From Alphaproteobacteria bacterium (GTDB taxonomy: Bacteria > Pseudomonadota > Alphaproteobacteria > UBA8366 > Aestuariispiraceae): 64,000 nucleotides of DNA. Below the pieces are notes generated by a model, which saw nothing but the letters and a program-made list of their open reading frames with translations, was not told where the DNA came from and did not search any database. Below are positions 39,992 to 46,922 of this stretch, piece by piece. The stretch is taken from assembly GCA_030065235.1 (NCBI GenBank), contig JASJDC010000011.1, positions 186,001 to 250,000 of the forward strand, given 5' to 3'. The translations under genes and the position numbers were made by a program. How positions within the stretch are numbered: position 1 is the stretch's first letter; every line of letters starts with the position of its first letter.

Positions 39992-40777
39992 ATGAAAGAA
40001 AAACGCAACCTGTTGCGACGTATCGGCGCCGCCTTCCTGCGGTTCCTCGAAGGTGCGGGAAAGCTTACAGTGTTCGCGCTGCGCGCGACCTCTCATTGTT
40101 TCCGGCCGCCGCTCTATCCGCGTCTGATCGGCCAGCAAATGGTCGATATCGGCTATTATTCTCTGCCGGTGGTTGGGATGACGACCTTGTTCGCGGGCAT
40201 GGTCCTGGCCCTGCAGAGCTATACCGGCTTCGCGCGCTTCTCCGCCGAAAGCGCGATCCCGAATGTCGTCGTGCTGTCGATCACGCGCGAACTTGGACCG
40301 GTGCTGGCGGGTCTGATGATCGCCGGGCGGATTGGCGCCGCCATGGCCGCCGAAGTCGGCACCATGCGTGTGACCGAACAAATTGACGCTCTGAATACGC
40401 TGGCCACAAATCCTTTCAAATATCTGGTGGCGCCGCGCCTGATCGCCGGCGTGACGATGATGCCGCTGTTGGTGCTGGTCGGCGATGTGATTGGCGTCTT
40501 CGGCGGCTATATCGTCTCTGTCTACAAGCTCGGCTTCAACGCCAGCGCCTATATTCAGAACACTTGGGAGTTTTTGGAGTTCCAGGACGTCGCATCGGGC
40601 TTGGTGAAAGCCGCCGTCTTCGGCTACCTAGTCGCCTTGATGGGGTGCTATCACGGCTATCAGTCGCGCGGCGGCGCCCAGGGCGTCGGCGCCGCGACCA
40701 CCAACGCGGTGGTCAGCGCCTCGATCTTGATCCTGATTTCCAACTACATCATCACCGAGATCTACTTCGCCCAATGA
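39992..40777 (+). CDS. mlaE: MlaE-type lipid ABC transporter permease
   Basis: Inner-membrane permease of the Mla phospholipid-trafficking ABC system that maintains outer-membrane asymmetry. 261 aa with five to six hydrophobic segments. Family motifs include LVLQ-like ALQSYTGFARF, ITRELGPVLAGLMIAGRIGAAMAAE and EVGTMRVTEQIDAL. The stop overlaps the mlaF ATG (ATGA). mlaD and mlaC, usually nearby, are absent from this locus. Confidence 0.92.
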   Translation: MKEKRNLLRRIGAAFLRFLEGAGKLTVFALRATSHCFRPPLYPRLIGQQMVDIGYYSLPVVGMTTLFAGMVLALQSYTGFARFSAESAIPNVVVLSITRELGPVLAGLMIAGRIGAAMAAEVGTMRVTEQIDALNTLATNPFKYLVAPRLIAGVTMMPLLVLVGDVIGVFGGYIVSVYKLGFNASAYIQNTWEFLEFQDVASGLVKAAVFGYLVALMGCYHGYQSRGGAQGVGAATTNAVVSASILILISNYIITEIYFAQ

Positions 40778-41550
40778 CCGCCGCGCCGAAAATCAAGATG
40801 ACGGGGGTCAAGAAGGCCTTTGGTCCGAAGGTCGTTTTGGACGGGTTCGACCTTGAGGTGTTGCCCAGGGAATCGGTTGTGATTATGGGCGGATCGGGCA
40901 GCGGCAAATCGGTGGCCCTGAAATGCATCCTGGGTCTGGTGACGCCGGATGACGGTCATATCGAGATCGACGGCGTCGAGGTCACTAATCTGAGCCGCAA
41001 GGATCGCGAGGCGGTGAACGCCAAGATCGGCATGCTGTTTCAGAACGCGGCTCTGTTCGACAGCCTCTCGGTCTGGGAGAATATCGCTTTCGGCTTGATC
41101 CAGGGCCGGAAGATGGCCCGCGACAAAGCGCGCGACATCGCGCATGAAAAGCTTGCGCAAGTCGGTATGGGCGCTGATGTCGGCGCCTTGAGCCCGGCGG
41201 AATTGTCGGGCGGCATGCGCAAACGCGTCGGTCTGGCCCGCGCCATCGCCGGCGACCCGGATATCATCTTCTTCGATGAACCGACGACCGGGCTAGACCC
41301 GATCATGGGTCATGTGATCGACGACCTGATCGTCAAATGCGTCCGCGAAGTCGGCGCTACGGCGCTGTCGATCACCCACGACATGGCCAGCGCCCGCCGT
41401 ATTTCGGACCGGATGGCGATGTTGTTTAAGGGCAAGAACATCTGGCAGGGCCCGACATCGTCTGTCGATGAATCCGGTAACGACCATGTCGATCAATTCA
41501 TCAACGGACGCGCCGACGGTCCGATCCAGATGGAAGTGTTCAAGCCTTAG
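40774..41550 (+). CDS. mlaF: MlaF-type lipid ABC transporter ATPase
   Basis: Cytoplasmic ATPase partner of MlaE, 258 aa from ATG 40774, overlapping the mlaE stop. Walker A GGSGSGKSV, signature LSGGMRKRVGLARA, Walker B IIFFDEPTTGLDP and switch ITHDM are all intact. Its last 350 bases have a decayed second copy at about 42138-42291. Convergent with the PAS-like gene that follows after 10 bases; where mlaD would be expected there is this gene instead. Confidence 0.93.
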   Translation: MTAAPKIKMTGVKKAFGPKVVLDGFDLEVLPRESVVIMGGSGSGKSVALKCILGLVTPDDGHIEIDGVEVTNLSRKDREAVNAKIGMLFQNAALFDSLSVWENIAFGLIQGRKMARDKARDIAHEKLAQVGMGADVGALSPAELSGGMRKRVGLARAIAGDPDIIFFDEPTTGLDPIMGHVIDDLIVKCVREVGATALSITHDMASARRISDRMAMLFKGKNIWQGPTSSVDESGNDHVDQFINGRADGPIQMEVFKP

Positions 41551-41560
41551 GCGGATCCGT

Positions 41561-42037
41561 CTACGGTCCCAACTCCAAATAGGCGTAGTCAATCACGCTG
41601 ACCGACACGATCGCGACAACTGTGTCATCCGGATCCAGCAACGGAAAGACCGCCGACTCGTATCGCTTTTGGAACGCGCGCCCGGTATCGAACGTATCGC
41701 GAACTGCGTAGGCGCGCTTGTCCGCCGTGGCCTCAAGCAGTCTCCGATTAATATGCGCGACTCCTGGGAACTCATCCATGTACTTGCCCGTTGGATTCAC
41801 CGCCAGGAAGTCCAGCCACATCTGCCCAATGATTTTGATCAACAGACGCGTTTCACCGCTCTCTCGATCGACATGAACCAACAGCAGATTGGGAAACGCC
41901 GACGGCGGCAATTTCGTAACGTCGAACAGCTTGTAAGAGTACAAACCGTCTTCGGAACGGAACGCTTCAAAGGCTTGGACCGCCTCCTTAAGGCTTTCAT
42001 CCTCCAACAAAGCAAAATTGTAGGCGAACTCGGCCAC
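41561..42037 (-). CDS. PAS-like domain protein, copy A of a tandem pair
   Basis: 158 aa soluble protein, about 69 percent identical by hand count to the gene at 42305-42772. The pattern LPNLLLVHVDRE-like strand, IKIIGQMWLDFLAVNPTGKYMDEFP and a C-terminal PLLD...VVAIVSVSVIDY hairpin resembles PAS_5-type sensor domains of alphaproteobacteria, but there is no attached kinase, GGDEF or HTH output. Expressed towards mlaF. A GGTATA-like stretch and the palindrome ATGCGC-N-GCGCAT lie 43 bases upstream in both copies. Ligand and partner unknown. Confidence 0.7.
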   Translation of the reverse strand: MAEFAYNFALLEDESLKEAVQAFEAFRSEDGLYSYKLFDVTKLPPSAFPNLLLVHVDRESGETRLLIKIIGQMWLDFLAVNPTGKYMDEFPGVAHINRRLLEATADKRAYAVRDTFDTGRAFQKRYESAVFPLLDPDDTVVAIVSVSVIDYAYLELGP

Positions 42038-42079
42038 AGGCGCCCCCGAATGTCATGACAGTCGGGCGGTATAGTACGA

Positions 42080-42092
42080 ATGCGCGGCGCAT
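42080..42092. promoter_or_regulatory. Conserved palindrome upstream of PAS copy A
   Basis: ATGCGC-G-GCGCAT, perfect 6-bp arms. It starts 43 bases from the gene start, next to a TAGTAC/TATA-like stretch, and has the same position and arms as the site before copy B. Likely operator or promoter element. Confidence 0.5.
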
Positions 42093-42137
42093 GAAAACAC
42101 CCTATTTGGCCGGCATTGGCGGCGCCGTCGCAAACAC

Positions 42138-42291
42138 CTGTTCGATGCGGGAACCGCGCTGACTGGGCGCGCTATCGCCGGCGCCCCCGGCATCATCTTT
42201 TGCGACGAATCAATGACAGAGCTGGCCCCGGTCTATGGGGCGCGCAATCGACGACCCGATCCAGATGGAAGCTTTCAAGTCTCAGGCGGCT
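42138..42291 (+). pseudogene. Decayed duplicate of the mlaF 3' end
   Basis: This stretch aligns with two separate parts of mlaF. 42164-42240 reads RAIAGAPGIIFCDE in one frame against RAIAGDPDIIFFDE of mlaF (41241-41283). 42250-42289 matches the mlaF stop region (41511-41550), with CCGATCCAGATGGAAG identical. About 170 bases between the two are missing, the Walker B aspartate-glutamate survives but the flanks are altered, and the stop has changed from TAG to CAG. No start remains. It marks the left part of the second copy of a tandem duplication. Confidence 0.75.
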
Positions 42292-42304
42292 TGGCCTGCG
42301 GTCC

Positions 42305-42772
42305 CTACTTCAGATAGTCGTAGTCGATCACGCTGATCGACACGATTGCGACAACCTCGCCTTCCGCATCCAGCAACGGAAAGACCGCTGCCTCGAATTT
42401 CTTTTCGACCGCCAGCCCGGTGTCGATTGTGTCGCGAACGGAGTAGGCGCGCTTGTCCGCGACAGCCCGAAGCAGTCTCTGGTTGACTCGCTCGGTTCCA
42501 GGTAGCTCATCCAAATACTGGCCCATTGGGTTTATTGCAATGGAGTCCAACCACATCTGCCCAATGATCTTGACAAACAGGCGCAGTCCATCGCCTTCGC
42601 GATCGACACGAACAAACAACAGATGTGGAAACGATGAAGGCGGGAGCTGCGTGACGTCGAACAGCTTGTAGGAGTACCCCCCGTTTTCGGAACGGAACGC
42701 TTGGAATGCCCGGACCGCCTCCTTTAGACCCTCATCCTCCAACAAAGAGAAATTGTAGGCGATCTCGACCAC
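42305..42772 (-). CDS. PAS-like domain protein, copy B of a tandem pair
   Basis: 155 aa, paralogue of 41561-42037 with the same length, same orientation and a start 735 bases away. The KIIGQMWLD core, ADKRAY, AVFPLLD and VVAIVS stretches are identical in both copies, whereas surface-type positions differ, which argues that both remain under selection. It has the same upstream palindrome. No output domain, signal or membrane segment. Function unknown; a PAS_5-like small-molecule sensor is inference. Confidence 0.7.
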   Translation of the reverse strand: MVEIAYNFSLLEDEGLKEAVRAFQAFRSENGGYSYKLFDVTQLPPSSFPHLLFVRVDREGDGLRLFVKIIGQMWLDSIAINPMGQYLDELPGTERVNQRLLRAVADKRAYSVRDTIDTGLAVEKKFEAAVFPLLDAEGEVVAIVSISVIDYDYLK

Positions 42773-42814
42773 ACGTTACCCCGAATTTTAATACAGACGA
42801 GTGGTATATTACAG

Positions 42815-42827
42815 ATGCGCAGCGCAT
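42815..42827. promoter_or_regulatory. Conserved palindrome upstream of PAS copy B
   Basis: ATGCGC-A-GCGCAT: both arms are identical to those at 42080-42092 and only the central base differs, 43 bases before the gene. Flanking bases have diverged more than the arms. Confidence 0.5.
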
Positions 42828-42979
42828 GGAAACAGTCTATTCGGCCACGCGCGCCGGCGCCAACGGTGGAACGATTCGGGGGTCGCGTTGAACGACATTA
42901 CGCTGAACTGCGTCGTTCCAGCGCAGCGCTGCACGGTTCGACCAACAACGCCTGTTCACAGTGCGAAGGCGCAGCCGGC

Positions 42980-44023
42980 TCAAAGCGCGACGCGTCGGCC
43001 TTCCTGACTAGACCTTTCGATGGCGTTGATGATCGCGATCACGTCCCGCGCTTCTTCAGCCGAAACCGGCGGCGCGCCACCGGTGCGAACCGCCTCGGCG
43101 AGTAGGCTGTATATTTGCGACCAATCTCCCGGAACGCTCGGAACCGTCTCGCGGCGGGTCGACCCGTCCTCAAGGACCCGGGTCAGTTCGGCCCATCGCT
43201 CTTCTGGTTCGCGTCCATAGGCCGGGTCGTCAGGGACGATTCCGGAGGCCAACTGCCCCTCCTGACAATCCATAAAGGACTTTATGTAGGACCCTTTGGT
43301 CCCGTGGATCGCATAGCGCGCCCGATTGTCCGGCACTGTAAAGCCGGCGAAAAGCTCAACGCGGAGACCTTCATGCGGCCCCGCTTCATAGCCAAGAATC
43401 GCACGCATCCGGTCTGGATTTTCGCCGCCTTCGATCCGCTGAAGGTCTCCGAACACCCAGTCCGGCTTTCCAAACAGCACATAGACTTGGTCGACCTGAT
43501 GCGTTCCCAAACCATATTGCGTCGGTTCAGTGCGACGATTCGGCGCGTCCCCGCCGGGAGTCGTCGGGGCGAAGAACTCGAAATGGCCGCGATACGACTG
43601 GATTCGGCCCAGCGTCCCGTCGTTGATGAGCTTGGAGAAGGTGAGAAAATCGCTATCCCAGCGCCGGTTTTGAAACACGGTGGCGATCACGCCGGCCTTG
43701 TCGCGCGCCGCGATAATGGCGTCGGCCTGGGCGACGGTATGGCAGAACGGCTTGTCGGTGATGACATTCTTGCCCGCCTCGATCGCCTGCAGGACCAGAT
43801 CCGCATGGGTGTAGCTCGGAGAGGCGATGACGACGAGTTCAACCGACGGATCGGCGAACAGCGCCGCCGGCGTCGGATGCACTGTCGCGGACGGGTATTC
43901 CGCCTTCACGGCGTCCGGCCGCGACGAGGCGACGGCGGCCAAAGACAGGCCCGCTTTTTTGAAGAGCGGCAAATGAAAAACCTTTGACGGCTCGCCAAAG
44001 CCGACCATTCCGACACGCACCAT
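42980..44023 (-). CDS. Gfo/Idh/MocA-family NAD(P)-dependent oxidoreductase
   Basis: 347 aa sugar or inositol dehydrogenase-like protein. The N-terminal Rossmann fold has GMVGFGEPSKVFHLPLF and the EAGKNVITDKPF motif with the catalytic-region lysine; the C-terminal alpha/beta domain includes YGLGTHQVDQ with the conserved histidine. GGGAG about 8 bases before ATG 44023 fixes the start; the upstream in-frame ATG 44077 overlaps the ATPase gene. Last gene of the sugar-transport operon, so it probably oxidises the imported sugar or a derivative. Confidence 0.88.
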   Translation of the reverse strand: MVRVGMVGFGEPSKVFHLPLFKKAGLSLAAVASSRPDAVKAEYPSATVHPTPAALFADPSVELVVIASPSYTHADLVLQAIEAGKNVITDKPFCHTVAQADAIIAARDKAGVIATVFQNRRWDSDFLTFSKLINDGTLGRIQSYRGHFEFFAPTTPGGDAPNRRTEPTQYGLGTHQVDQVYVLFGKPDWVFGDLQRIEGGENPDRMRAILGYEAGPHEGLRVELFAGFTVPDNRARYAIHGTKGSYIKSFMDCQEGQLASGIVPDDPAYGREPEERWAELTRVLEDGSTRRETVPSVPGDWSQIYSLLAEAVRTGGAPPVSAEEARDVIAIINAIERSSQEGRRVAL

Positions 44024-44057
44024 TGTAGGCTCCCTAAGGTTTTGGATCGAGCGGCGC

Positions 44058-45170
44058 TCAGGCGACCCGCATTTCACTCGCGGGATCGAAGAAATGCGCT
44101 TTGCCCATGTTGAAGTTGAAGGGCATTTTATCCCCAGGGTTGACGCCGAACCCTGCGCGCATCCGGGCGATCAATTCCTTGCCGCCCAGATGGGTGACCA
44201 CGTATTTGTCCGCGCCGGTCGGCTCAACCACTTCGACGTGGCATTCCGCCTGCGCCACATCGGTGGCGGCGGCGTCCTGGCCCTCGGCGTCGGTCACGTC
44301 CTCCGGCCGGATGCCGAAGACGATGTTCTTGCCGATCAGCTTGTCCAGCGCACCCGCCTTTTCACGCACCGGCAGGATGATCGAGCCGCTCTCGCGGCTC
44401 AGTTCGACATGGACGCCCGCGTCGTTCTTTTCCAACTTCGCCGGGATCAGATTCATCGTCGGCGAGCCCATGAAATCGGCGACGAACAGGTTGGCCGGCG
44501 TGTTGTAGACCTCGTCCGGCGAGCCGACCTGCTGCAAGACGCCGTCCTTCAGGACCGCGATCTGCGTCGCCAGCGTCATAGCCTCGATCTGATCATGGGT
44601 CACATAGACGATGGTCGCGCTGAGCTTTTGATGCAGCCGCTTGATCTCGGTCCGCATGTCGACACGCAGCTTTGCGTCCAGGTTGGAGAGCGGCTCGTCG
44701 AACAGGAAGAGTTTCGGATCGCGCACCAGCGCCCTACCCATCGCGACGCGCTGACGCTGACCGCCGGAAAGCTGGCCGGGGCGTCGGTCGAGTAGGTGGC
44801 CGATCTGCAGCATGTCGGCGACGCCCGCGACCGCATCCGCCCGCTCTTCCTTCGACGCGCCGCGCATCTCCAGTCCAAAGGCGATATTGTCGCGCACATT
44901 CATCGACGGGTAGAGCGCGTAGGATTGGAACACCATCGCGATATCGCGCTTCGACGGGTGCAGATCGTTGACCACCGAGCCATCAATCTTGATAGCCCCG
45001 CTGGTGATGTCCTCCAGGCCCGCGATCGTATTCAGCAGCGTAGACTTGCCGCAGCCGGACGGACCGACCAGAACCAGAAAGCCGCCCTCTTCGATGGCGA
45101 TGTTGATGCCTTTCAGGACGTCGACCGGCCCGTAAGACTTGTGCAACTGGTTGATTTCGAGAAACGCCAT
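44058..45170 (-). CDS. Sugar ABC transporter ATPase (UgpC/MalK/GtsD type)
   Basis: 370 aa ATPase of CUT1-family carbohydrate importers. Walker A GPSGCGKST near residue 39, signature LSGGQRQRVAMGRA, Walker B LFLFDEPLSNLDAKLR and the switch VTHDQIEAMT are present. The C-terminal TOBE/regulatory region (about 240-370) is of the MalK/UgpC kind. Downstream of two permeases and a binding protein on the same strand. Confidence 0.93.
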   Translation of the reverse strand: MAFLEINQLHKSYGPVDVLKGINIAIEEGGFLVLVGPSGCGKSTLLNTIAGLEDITSGAIKIDGSVVNDLHPSKRDIAMVFQSYALYPSMNVRDNIAFGLEMRGASKEERADAVAGVADMLQIGHLLDRRPGQLSGGQRQRVAMGRALVRDPKLFLFDEPLSNLDAKLRVDMRTEIKRLHQKLSATIVYVTHDQIEAMTLATQIAVLKDGVLQQVGSPDEVYNTPANLFVADFMGSPTMNLIPAKLEKNDAGVHVELSRESGSIILPVREKAGALDKLIGKNIVFGIRPEDVTDAEGQDAAATDVAQAECHVEVVEPTGADKYVVTHLGGKELIARMRAGFGVNPGDKMPFNFNMGKAHFFDPASEMRVA

Positions 45171-45186
45171 GACCGTTTCCTCTCCC

Positions 45187-46047
45187 CTACCCTTTGACCG
45201 CGCCGGCCATCAGACCACGCACGAAATACCGGCCCGAAACGATATAGACGACCAGCGTTGGCAAAGCCGCGAGTATCGCTCCGGCGAAATGGACGTTGTA
45301 TTCCTTCACCCCTGTCGAGGATGAGACGAGATTGTTCAGCGCCACCGTCACCGGCTGACTATCCGCGTCCGCGAAAGAGGCGCCGAACAGGAAGTCGTTC
45401 CAGACATTGGTGAACTGCCAGATCACCGTGACGACGATGATGGGACCGGAGCTGGGCAACAGGATCCGATAGAAGATCCGGAAGAAGCCGGCCCCGTCGA
45501 TGGTCGCCGCCCGCACCAACTCGGTTGGGAAGGCGTCGTAATAGTTCCGGAAGAACAGCGTCGTGAAGCCGATCCCGTAAATCATATGGACAAAGACCAG
45601 GCCCGAGGTCGTACCTGCGATCCCCAATGTGCCGAGAATGCGCGCCATCGGAATGAGCACAATCTGGAAGGGAATAAAGCAGGACAGCAACAGCAGACCG
45701 AAGACGATGCGGTGACCGGGGAACTGCCATTTCGTCAGAACATACCCGTTCACGGCGCCCAGCATGGTTGACAGAAAGACCGCGGGAACGACCATCAGGA
45801 TCGAGTTGATGAAATACGGTTTCAGCCCCGTTGGATCGACGCCGATCTGCGCCGTGCTCCAAGCGGAGAGCCAGGGTTCGATGGTGAATTTCTGCGGCAA
45901 GGACAGCATCGCGCCTTGGCGAATCTCGTCCAGCTCTTTCACCGAGTTCACCACCATCACATAGAGCGGCAGCATGTAATAGACCGCGAAGACGATCAGG
46001 ATCGAATAAAGCAGCGCCCGGGAGAATTTGCCTGACATGTTGGTCAT
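45187..46047 (-). CDS. Sugar ABC transporter permease (MalG/GtsC type)
   Basis: 286 aa inner-membrane permease with about six helices. The N-terminal LLYSILIVFAVYYMLPLYVM helix and the EAA-type loop RAATIDGAGFFRIFYRILLP (ATPase contact) identify the CUT1 MalG class. The start overlaps the upstream permease stop by 4 bases, and the ATPase follows after 16 bases. Confidence 0.92.
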   Translation of the reverse strand: MTNMSGKFSRALLYSILIVFAVYYMLPLYVMVVNSVKELDEIRQGAMLSLPQKFTIEPWLSAWSTAQIGVDPTGLKPYFINSILMVVPAVFLSTMLGAVNGYVLTKWQFPGHRIVFGLLLLSCFIPFQIVLIPMARILGTLGIAGTTSGLVFVHMIYGIGFTTLFFRNYYDAFPTELVRAATIDGAGFFRIFYRILLPSSGPIIVVTVIWQFTNVWNDFLFGASFADADSQPVTVALNNLVSSSTGVKEYNVHFAGAILAALPTLVVYIVSGRYFVRGLMAGAVKG

Positions 46048-46922
46048 GCCTTCTTCTCCTTCAACTCGCTATAGAGGTAGGGCACGATGATCGACGCGAT
46101 CATGATCAACATGATGATCGCCGATGAAGCGCCGACACCCATCTGGTTTCGCGAGAACGTGTAAGAATACATGAAAGTCGCCGGCAATTCCGTCGCCCTT
46201 CCCGGCCCGCCGTTGGTCAGCGCGATCACCAAGTCATAGGACTTGATCGCCAGATGGGCGAGCACGACGAAGGCCGATAGGAAGGCCGGACGCAGCATTG
46301 GGATGATGATCCGGCGATAGAGATTGAAATTTGACGCGCCGTCGATCTGCGCCGCGCGCATGATCTCGCCGTCGATTCCGCGTAGTCCCGCCAGAAACAT
46401 CGCCATCACGAAGCCGGACGATTGCCAGACCGCCGCGATTACGACGGTATAGATCGCCATGTCGCGATCCTTGATCCAGCGGAACGAGAAATCGGTCCAG
46501 CCCCATGTCTGTACGACATTTTCGAGCCCGATACCCGGATCGAGAAACCATTTCCAGGCGGTGCCGGTGACGATGAAGCTCAGCGCCATCGGATAGAGAT
46601 AAATCGGCCGCAAAATACCTTCGCCGCGAATCTTCCGATCGAGCAGGATCGCCAGGGTCAGGCCGATAACGGTGCAAATGACGATGTAGAGAATGCCGAA
46701 AATCGCCAGGTTGGTCAGCGCAGTCTCCCAATGCCGCAACCCGAAAAGCCGCTCGTAATTCGCAAATCCCACCAAGCCGTAAGAGGGCAGCATGCGGCTG
46801 TCCGAGAACGACAAATAAGACGTGTAGAGAATAAATCCGTATACGAAGATGGCTATGAGAGCGACGCTGGGCGACAACACCAGACGCGGCAGCCAATCTT
46901 GTAACTTCGCGCGGTACGGCAT
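46044..46922 (-). CDS. Sugar ABC transporter permease (MalF/GtsB type)
   Basis: 292 aa permease with six helices. The loop MRAAQIDGASNFNLYRRIIIP is the EAA motif (the first residues shown suffice to recognise it). It starts 120 bases after the binding-protein gene, with a terminator-like hairpin in between, so expression is probably lower than that of the binding protein. Confidence 0.92.
   Translation of the reverse strand: MPYRAKLQDWLPRLVLSPSVALIAIFVYGFILYTSYLSFSDSRMLPSYGLVGFANYERLFGLRHWETALTNLAIFGILYIVICTVIGLTLAILLDRKIRGEGILRPIYLYPMALSFIVTGTAWKWFLDPGIGLENVVQTWGWTDFSFRWIKDRDMAIYTVVIAAVWQSSGFVMAMFLAGLRGIDGEIMRAAQIDGASNFNLYRRIIIPMLRPAFLSAFVVLAHLAIKSYDLVIALTNGGPGRATELPATFMYSYTFSRNQMGVGASSAIIMLIMIASIIVPYLYSELKEKKA

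Follow-up and report, generated by a model that had tools for sequence, protein, structure and literature searches.

A tandem duplication at the mlaF 3' end in an alphaproteobacterium carries a decayed mlaF fragment and two open PAS_5-like genes

Downstream of an mlaE-mlaF gene pair in an alphaproteobacterial genome, two similar small genes lie one behind the other with what resembles a second mlaF terminus between them, which raises the question of how this arrangement arose and whether both small genes are maintained by selection. Our preferred reading, to which we assign a probability of roughly 80%, is that a local duplication of ~930 bp left an mlaF passenger that decayed and two small, constrained PAS_5-like proteins that were retained. 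The features discussed below are given by their positions in the window, the whole stretch of 64,000 nucleotides that was analyzed.

39992-40777, plus strand: mlaE (MlaE-family permease), intact and outside the duplication (PF02405, E 3.7e-81; TIGR00056, 254.6 bits, cut-off 212.2)
40774-41550, plus strand: mlaF-type ABC ATPase, intact (PF00005, E 1.1e-31; residues 4-258 align at 83% with the closest relative)
41561-42037, minus strand: pasA, convergent to mlaF, encoding a single-domain PAS_5-like protein of 158 aa from a GTG start
42038-42135, no strand assigned: pasA upstream region, right end of unit A, with ATGCGCNGCGCAT at 42080-42092
42137-42285, plus strand: degraded remnant of the mlaF 3' end in unit B, lacking 195 bp internally, with the join at ~42249-42261 (repeat search, blastn)
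42305-42772, minus strand: pasB, paralog of pasA (69% amino acid identity), 155 aa, GTG start
42773-42870, no strand assigned: pasB upstream region, right end of unit B, with ATGCGCNGCGCAT at 42815-42827

The region at ~41205-42870 is a plain head-to-tail tandem duplication, an ordinary gene-duplication event, and its unit of ~930 bp comprises the 3' end of mlaF, a convergent PAS-like gene, and the region upstream of that gene. When 41200-42100 was compared with 42101-42920 by blastn, the main block (41514-42099 against 42249-42834) ran ungapped over 586 columns at 78.3% identity (E 9.5e-141) and covered the terminal 37 bases of mlaF, the entire PAS gene, and 62 bases upstream of it. The mlaF relic forms a further block (41239-41331 against 42168-42261) of 94 columns at 75.5% with one gap (E 1e-13), and a second repeat search was concordant, giving 77% and 76% at spacings of 929-930 and 735. 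The initial annotation had proposed a tandem duplication of the mlaF tail together with a PAS-like gene, and these blocks bear it out, with significant self-matches across 41200-42900 in both the PAS/upstream and the mlaF portions. Copy A spans ~41205-42135 and copy B ~42137-42870; homology starts at ~41205-41215 in A, within the 3' part of mlaF, and at ~42137-42145 in B, and it stops at ~42135 and ~42870, the outermost bases of both units being set by eye. By eye also, the right end of copy A meets the left end of copy B within a few bases, so that collinear homology reaching past the PAS gene is combined with abutting units.

The two copies of the mlaF segment have fared differently. In copy A the gene is intact and aligns nearly end to end with its relatives, the nearest named ones being Hwanghaeella, Pacificispira, and Aestuariispira, which places the window in an alphaproteobacterium of their group; the narrow NCBIfam models for MlaE and MlaF matched below their cut-offs, the MlaF equivalog NF008809 at 168 of 441 bits. 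In copy B the spacing to copy A is 929-930 before the gap and 735 after it, and therefore 195 bp of mlaF sequence has been lost; the internal deletion described earlier exists, at this size instead of ~170 bases. It ends at the 13-base near-repeats CGACGACCTGATC (41319) and CGACGGTCCGATC (41514), which are alike at 10/13 positions, and copy B reads at the join as a fusion of the two.

Both PAS frames are open, and their products are identical at 107/155 residues, in agreement with the 69% obtained by hand count in the initial annotation. Its description of the cores as identical applies to short blocks, of which YSYKLFDVT and KIIGQMWLD are the longest, and not to the cores as wholes. The repeated upstream region also stands in part: GGTATA and ATGCGCNGCGCAT are found in both copies, but a second palindrome (42045-42066) is found in copy A only. 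Genome-wide, ATGCGCNGCGCAT occurs at four places, upstream of pasA, upstream of pasB, and twice inside open frames, one of which we take to be portal-like; a reversed control pattern gave 0. With only four places, two of them inside open frames, a role as a regulon-wide operator was rejected. The presence of ATGCGCNGCGCAT in both copies is only suggestive and points weakly to what may be a candidate local operator. A sigma-70 promoter scan returned 0 promoters (0.6 in shuffles), and a terminator scan returned 2 terminators (2.4 in shuffles). On the far side of pasB, a minus-strand group at 42980-46922 looks by eye like a sugar ABC transporter, with two permeases and a UgpC-like ATPase, and ends in a Gfo/Idh oxidoreductase (Pfam). 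Because this group points toward pasB across a gap of 207 bases, read-through into the PAS genes could occur.

Whether both PAS genes have been under selection bears directly on the preferred reading. Differences between them number 35, 21, and 43 of 155 at the three codon positions in turn, and the identity of the noncoding upstream block (46/62; 42773-42834 against copy A) is near the third-position level. Pairwise dN/dS is 0.345 by NG86 (codon bootstrap 0.21-0.56), 0.39 by LWL85, 0.37 by maximum likelihood, and 0.50 by YN00. Neutral simulations (2000 runs, matched for the number of changes) left the frame open in 6.75% and gave a mean identity of 93/155 residues with a maximum of 108, where the two proteins share 107. 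We also scored both proteins with a family profile of 14 other genes, taken from 19 translated loci with L011, L012, L014, L016, and L017 left out and with L004 and L007 trimmed to their first 190 residues. The profile gave 89.3 bits for pasA and 74.5 bits for pasB; all of its members were recruited with pasA as the query (13/14 passed E 0.001, and the 14th also came from a pasA search), a bias that favors A. Among 300 copies of pasA carrying 50 random changes, the median score was 54.6 bits and the 95th percentile 68.4, so both genes score higher than 95% of these neutrally decayed copies. With dN/dS below 1 and profile scores of this order, both copies look constrained, although the pairwise statistics also fit one weakly constrained copy, the YN00 value near 0.5 being compatible with that case as well. 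The earlier picture of a decayed mlaF part beside two PAS genes that stayed open under selection is thus upheld in its signs, and purifying selection on both genes is most likely.

The most serious competitor to this reading is that one PAS copy is a pseudogene still open by chance and that the other alone is under selection. A dN/dS of 0.34-0.50, being an average over the pair, is possible for one constrained and one unconstrained copy, and a frame does survive in 6.75% of the neutral simulations. Moreover, pasB scores below pasA on the family profile, though the profile was recruited with pasA, and the best of the 300 copies with 50 changes, at 81.1 bits, beats pasB. The same score of 74.5 nevertheless lies above the 95th percentile at 50 changes and above the maximum of 56.7 reached by copies with 99 changes. 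Outgroup residues support the two copies about equally, agreeing with A and B in 37 and 30 cases among the six PAS_5 paralogs of the genome and in 89 and 71 among the 14 relatives, which also argues against a pseudogene. We therefore consider this alternative unlikely, while granting it a real share of the doubt.

The family to which the two proteins belong is less obvious than their similarity to each other. Neither matches PF07310 (PAS_5) in a Pfam scan at E up to 1, neither is assigned an NCBIfam family, and pasB touches PAS_4 at E 0.13, below any Pfam family assignment. When the genome was searched with PF07310, five other genes passed the PAS_5 cut-off and a sixth fell short of it, but neither pasA nor pasB was recovered at E up to 0.1. 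Matches to pasA occur at E 0.001 in 14/59 alphaproteobacterial genomes, the source genome included. Ten matched proteins from the 19 translated loci were scanned (one of them, L003, had a pasA match no better than E 0.12); seven lie above the PF07310 cut-off, two lie below it, and one has no match. Because PF07310 members above the cut-off are among the proteins matched by pasA, and the profile built from relatives alone scores both proteins (89.3 and 74.5 bits), we assign both to PAS_5, of which they are, as predicted by transitive homology, divergent members; alignment with relatives shows one PAS_5-type domain in each. A structural model built from the two sequences has helices and five strands, the number in the antiparallel sheet of a PAS fold, at a poor mean pLDDT of 50.5. 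Among the 50 of 1353 PDB matches listed for it, the best carry PAS or LOV domain titles (best E 2.3e-3, TM-scores ~0.3), and none reaches E 0.001. The fold family suggests that the two products may be sensors, as the initial annotation called them.

No single-copy PAS ortholog was found in a scan of genome contigs for related loci or in three overlapping sets of 59, 43, and 385 genomes; among the genomes listed for the first set, the source genome is the sole representative of its genus. The best matches by E-value stand at 30% identity, and the highest identity listed is 36% over 83 residues. Among the other 13 genomes of the family, a two-domain protein at 30% was the single match at E 1e-9, and a sample of 384 further genomes from the class yielded one at E 1e-12, also at 30%. 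In the data searched, the PAS pair is restricted to the source genome, and therefore the ancestral state and the order of events given below are inferred from one genome.

Among proteins with a name and a known function, MopJ (CCNA_00999) of Caulobacter crescentus comes closest. In PMC4432633, MopJ is described as a 165-residue single-domain protein, PAS_5 by Pfam, that interacts with DivJ, promotes CtrA re-accumulation, takes a polar position, and is induced by (p)ppGpp; PMC10468136 is a further research article on PAS domains. The resemblance is one of kind, by size and domain rather than by sequence comparison: 165 residues compare with 158 and 155, and all three are proteins of alphaproteobacterial hosts with a single PAS_5-type domain and no effector domain. 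Unlike MopJ, which reaches Pfam PAS_5, pasA and pasB fall below Pfam detection, and any of the five other PAS_5 genes of the genome may be the MopJ counterpart. By analogy, a MopJ-like action (through DivJ and CtrA, polar, and induced by (p)ppGpp) is possible given that the genome has a gene for DUF2497 (PopZ).

Two-domain PAS_5 proteins of other alphaproteobacteria offer a different comparison. L004 (338 aa), L007 (330 aa), and L145 (an open frame of 358 codons) have two domains per chain, whereas pasA and pasB have one, and pasA aligns with the N-terminal half of each. Outside the source genome, the best pasA matches by E-value are L004 and L145, at 30% identity each, and L007 stands at 28%. 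Two PF07310 stretches are found in L004, Pfam sees only the second domain of L007, and two domains are apparent by eye in L145. The N-terminal domain of L004 and L007, the one matched by pasA, is less well recognized by Pfam PAS_5 than the second. L004 and L007 lie on contigs other than those of the alr-linked mlaF of their genomes. We see little chance that pasA and pasB are a matched pair forming a lineage-restricted heteromeric PAS_5 sensor, in which two chains would replace the work of a two-domain protein.

In Escherichia coli, mlaD follows mlaE. Here the PAS pair comes after mlaF, and the initial annotation regarded mlaD as expected after mlaF and missing at exactly this place, which would fit an mla operon broken by the duplication, with mlaD displaced or lost. 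The loci of relatives speak against this. From 80 loci we kept the 60 in which mlaE immediately precedes the focal mlaF and dropped 20; 40 of the 60 have an alr match in the locus. A tblastn search with three queries found no MlaD-like gene within 2.5 kb downstream of mlaF in any of the 40 alr loci and found one in 5/20 loci without alr (the downstream sequence is shorter than 2 kb in 12/60 loci, 7/40 with alr). By profile, MlaD is beside the alr-linked mlaF in 0/14 family genomes, a count that includes the source genome, a contig (G013) ending 318 bases after mlaF, and several genomes that also contribute to the 40 alr loci. What does follow mlaF is often radA, which begins within 160 bp in 18/60 loci and within 5 kb in 32/60. 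The source genome itself has an MlaD match at C15:13465, where it closely follows another mlaF-like ATPase gene (C15:12520-13185), and none beside mlaE-mlaF at the duplication. The supposed gap is therefore no anomaly, no intact mlaE-mlaF-mlaD arrangement appeared within 2.5 kb at the 40 alr loci, mlaD loss at this site was rejected, and a broken mla operon is very improbable.

The gene order dnaB-alr-mlaE-mlaF of the source genome is shared with the alphaproteobacterial dnaB-alr-mlaE-mlaF-radA cluster (relatives examined at 30 of the 80 loci), but where that cluster has radA after mlaF, the source genome has the PAS pair and the Gfo/Idh gene instead (downstream genes were listed for 11 loci). 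In two Hwanghaeella loci, the nearest relatives (L054 and L055), no radA turned up in the 5 kb after mlaF, and a short frame, presumably rpmJ-like (ribosomal protein L36), lies directly after mlaF on the opposite strand; for these reasons the Hwanghaeella-related group seems to have undergone rearrangement downstream of mlaF. A remnant of a PAS gene in these two loci was considered and rejected, the best tblastn match having E 0.46 and blastn being confident for the mlaF tail only. As for an assembly artefact, in which a single region was assembled twice, the head-to-tail layout would suit it, but ~22% base differences in the main block and a 195-bp deletion in one copy leave it effectively excluded.

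Under the preferred reading of duplication, decay, and retention, the ancestor would have carried a single convergent PAS_5-like gene after mlaF. A segment of some 930 bp, beginning inside the 3' part of mlaF and reaching ~100 bp past the PAS start codon on its upstream side, would then have been duplicated head-to-tail. The extra mlaF fragment, having neither a start nor a use, would have decayed, and slippage between the two 13-base near-repeats at which the deletion ends probably removed the 195 bp. Both PAS genes have kept their start, frame, and family residues and have diverged about equally. Each most likely encodes a small soluble single-domain PAS_5 protein that, going by its fold family, would bind a ligand or partner and thereby tune a signaling protein, as MopJ does in Caulobacter; partner, ligand, or dose probably distinguishes one copy from the other.

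The locus is a clean, small example in which a decayed transporter-gene passenger serves as an in-place yardstick for a retained PAS gene. It corrects the expectation that alphaproteobacteria should have mlaD after mlaF where mlaEF is linked to alr, and it adds to the PAS_5 group what appears to be a divergent pair that the Pfam profile misses.
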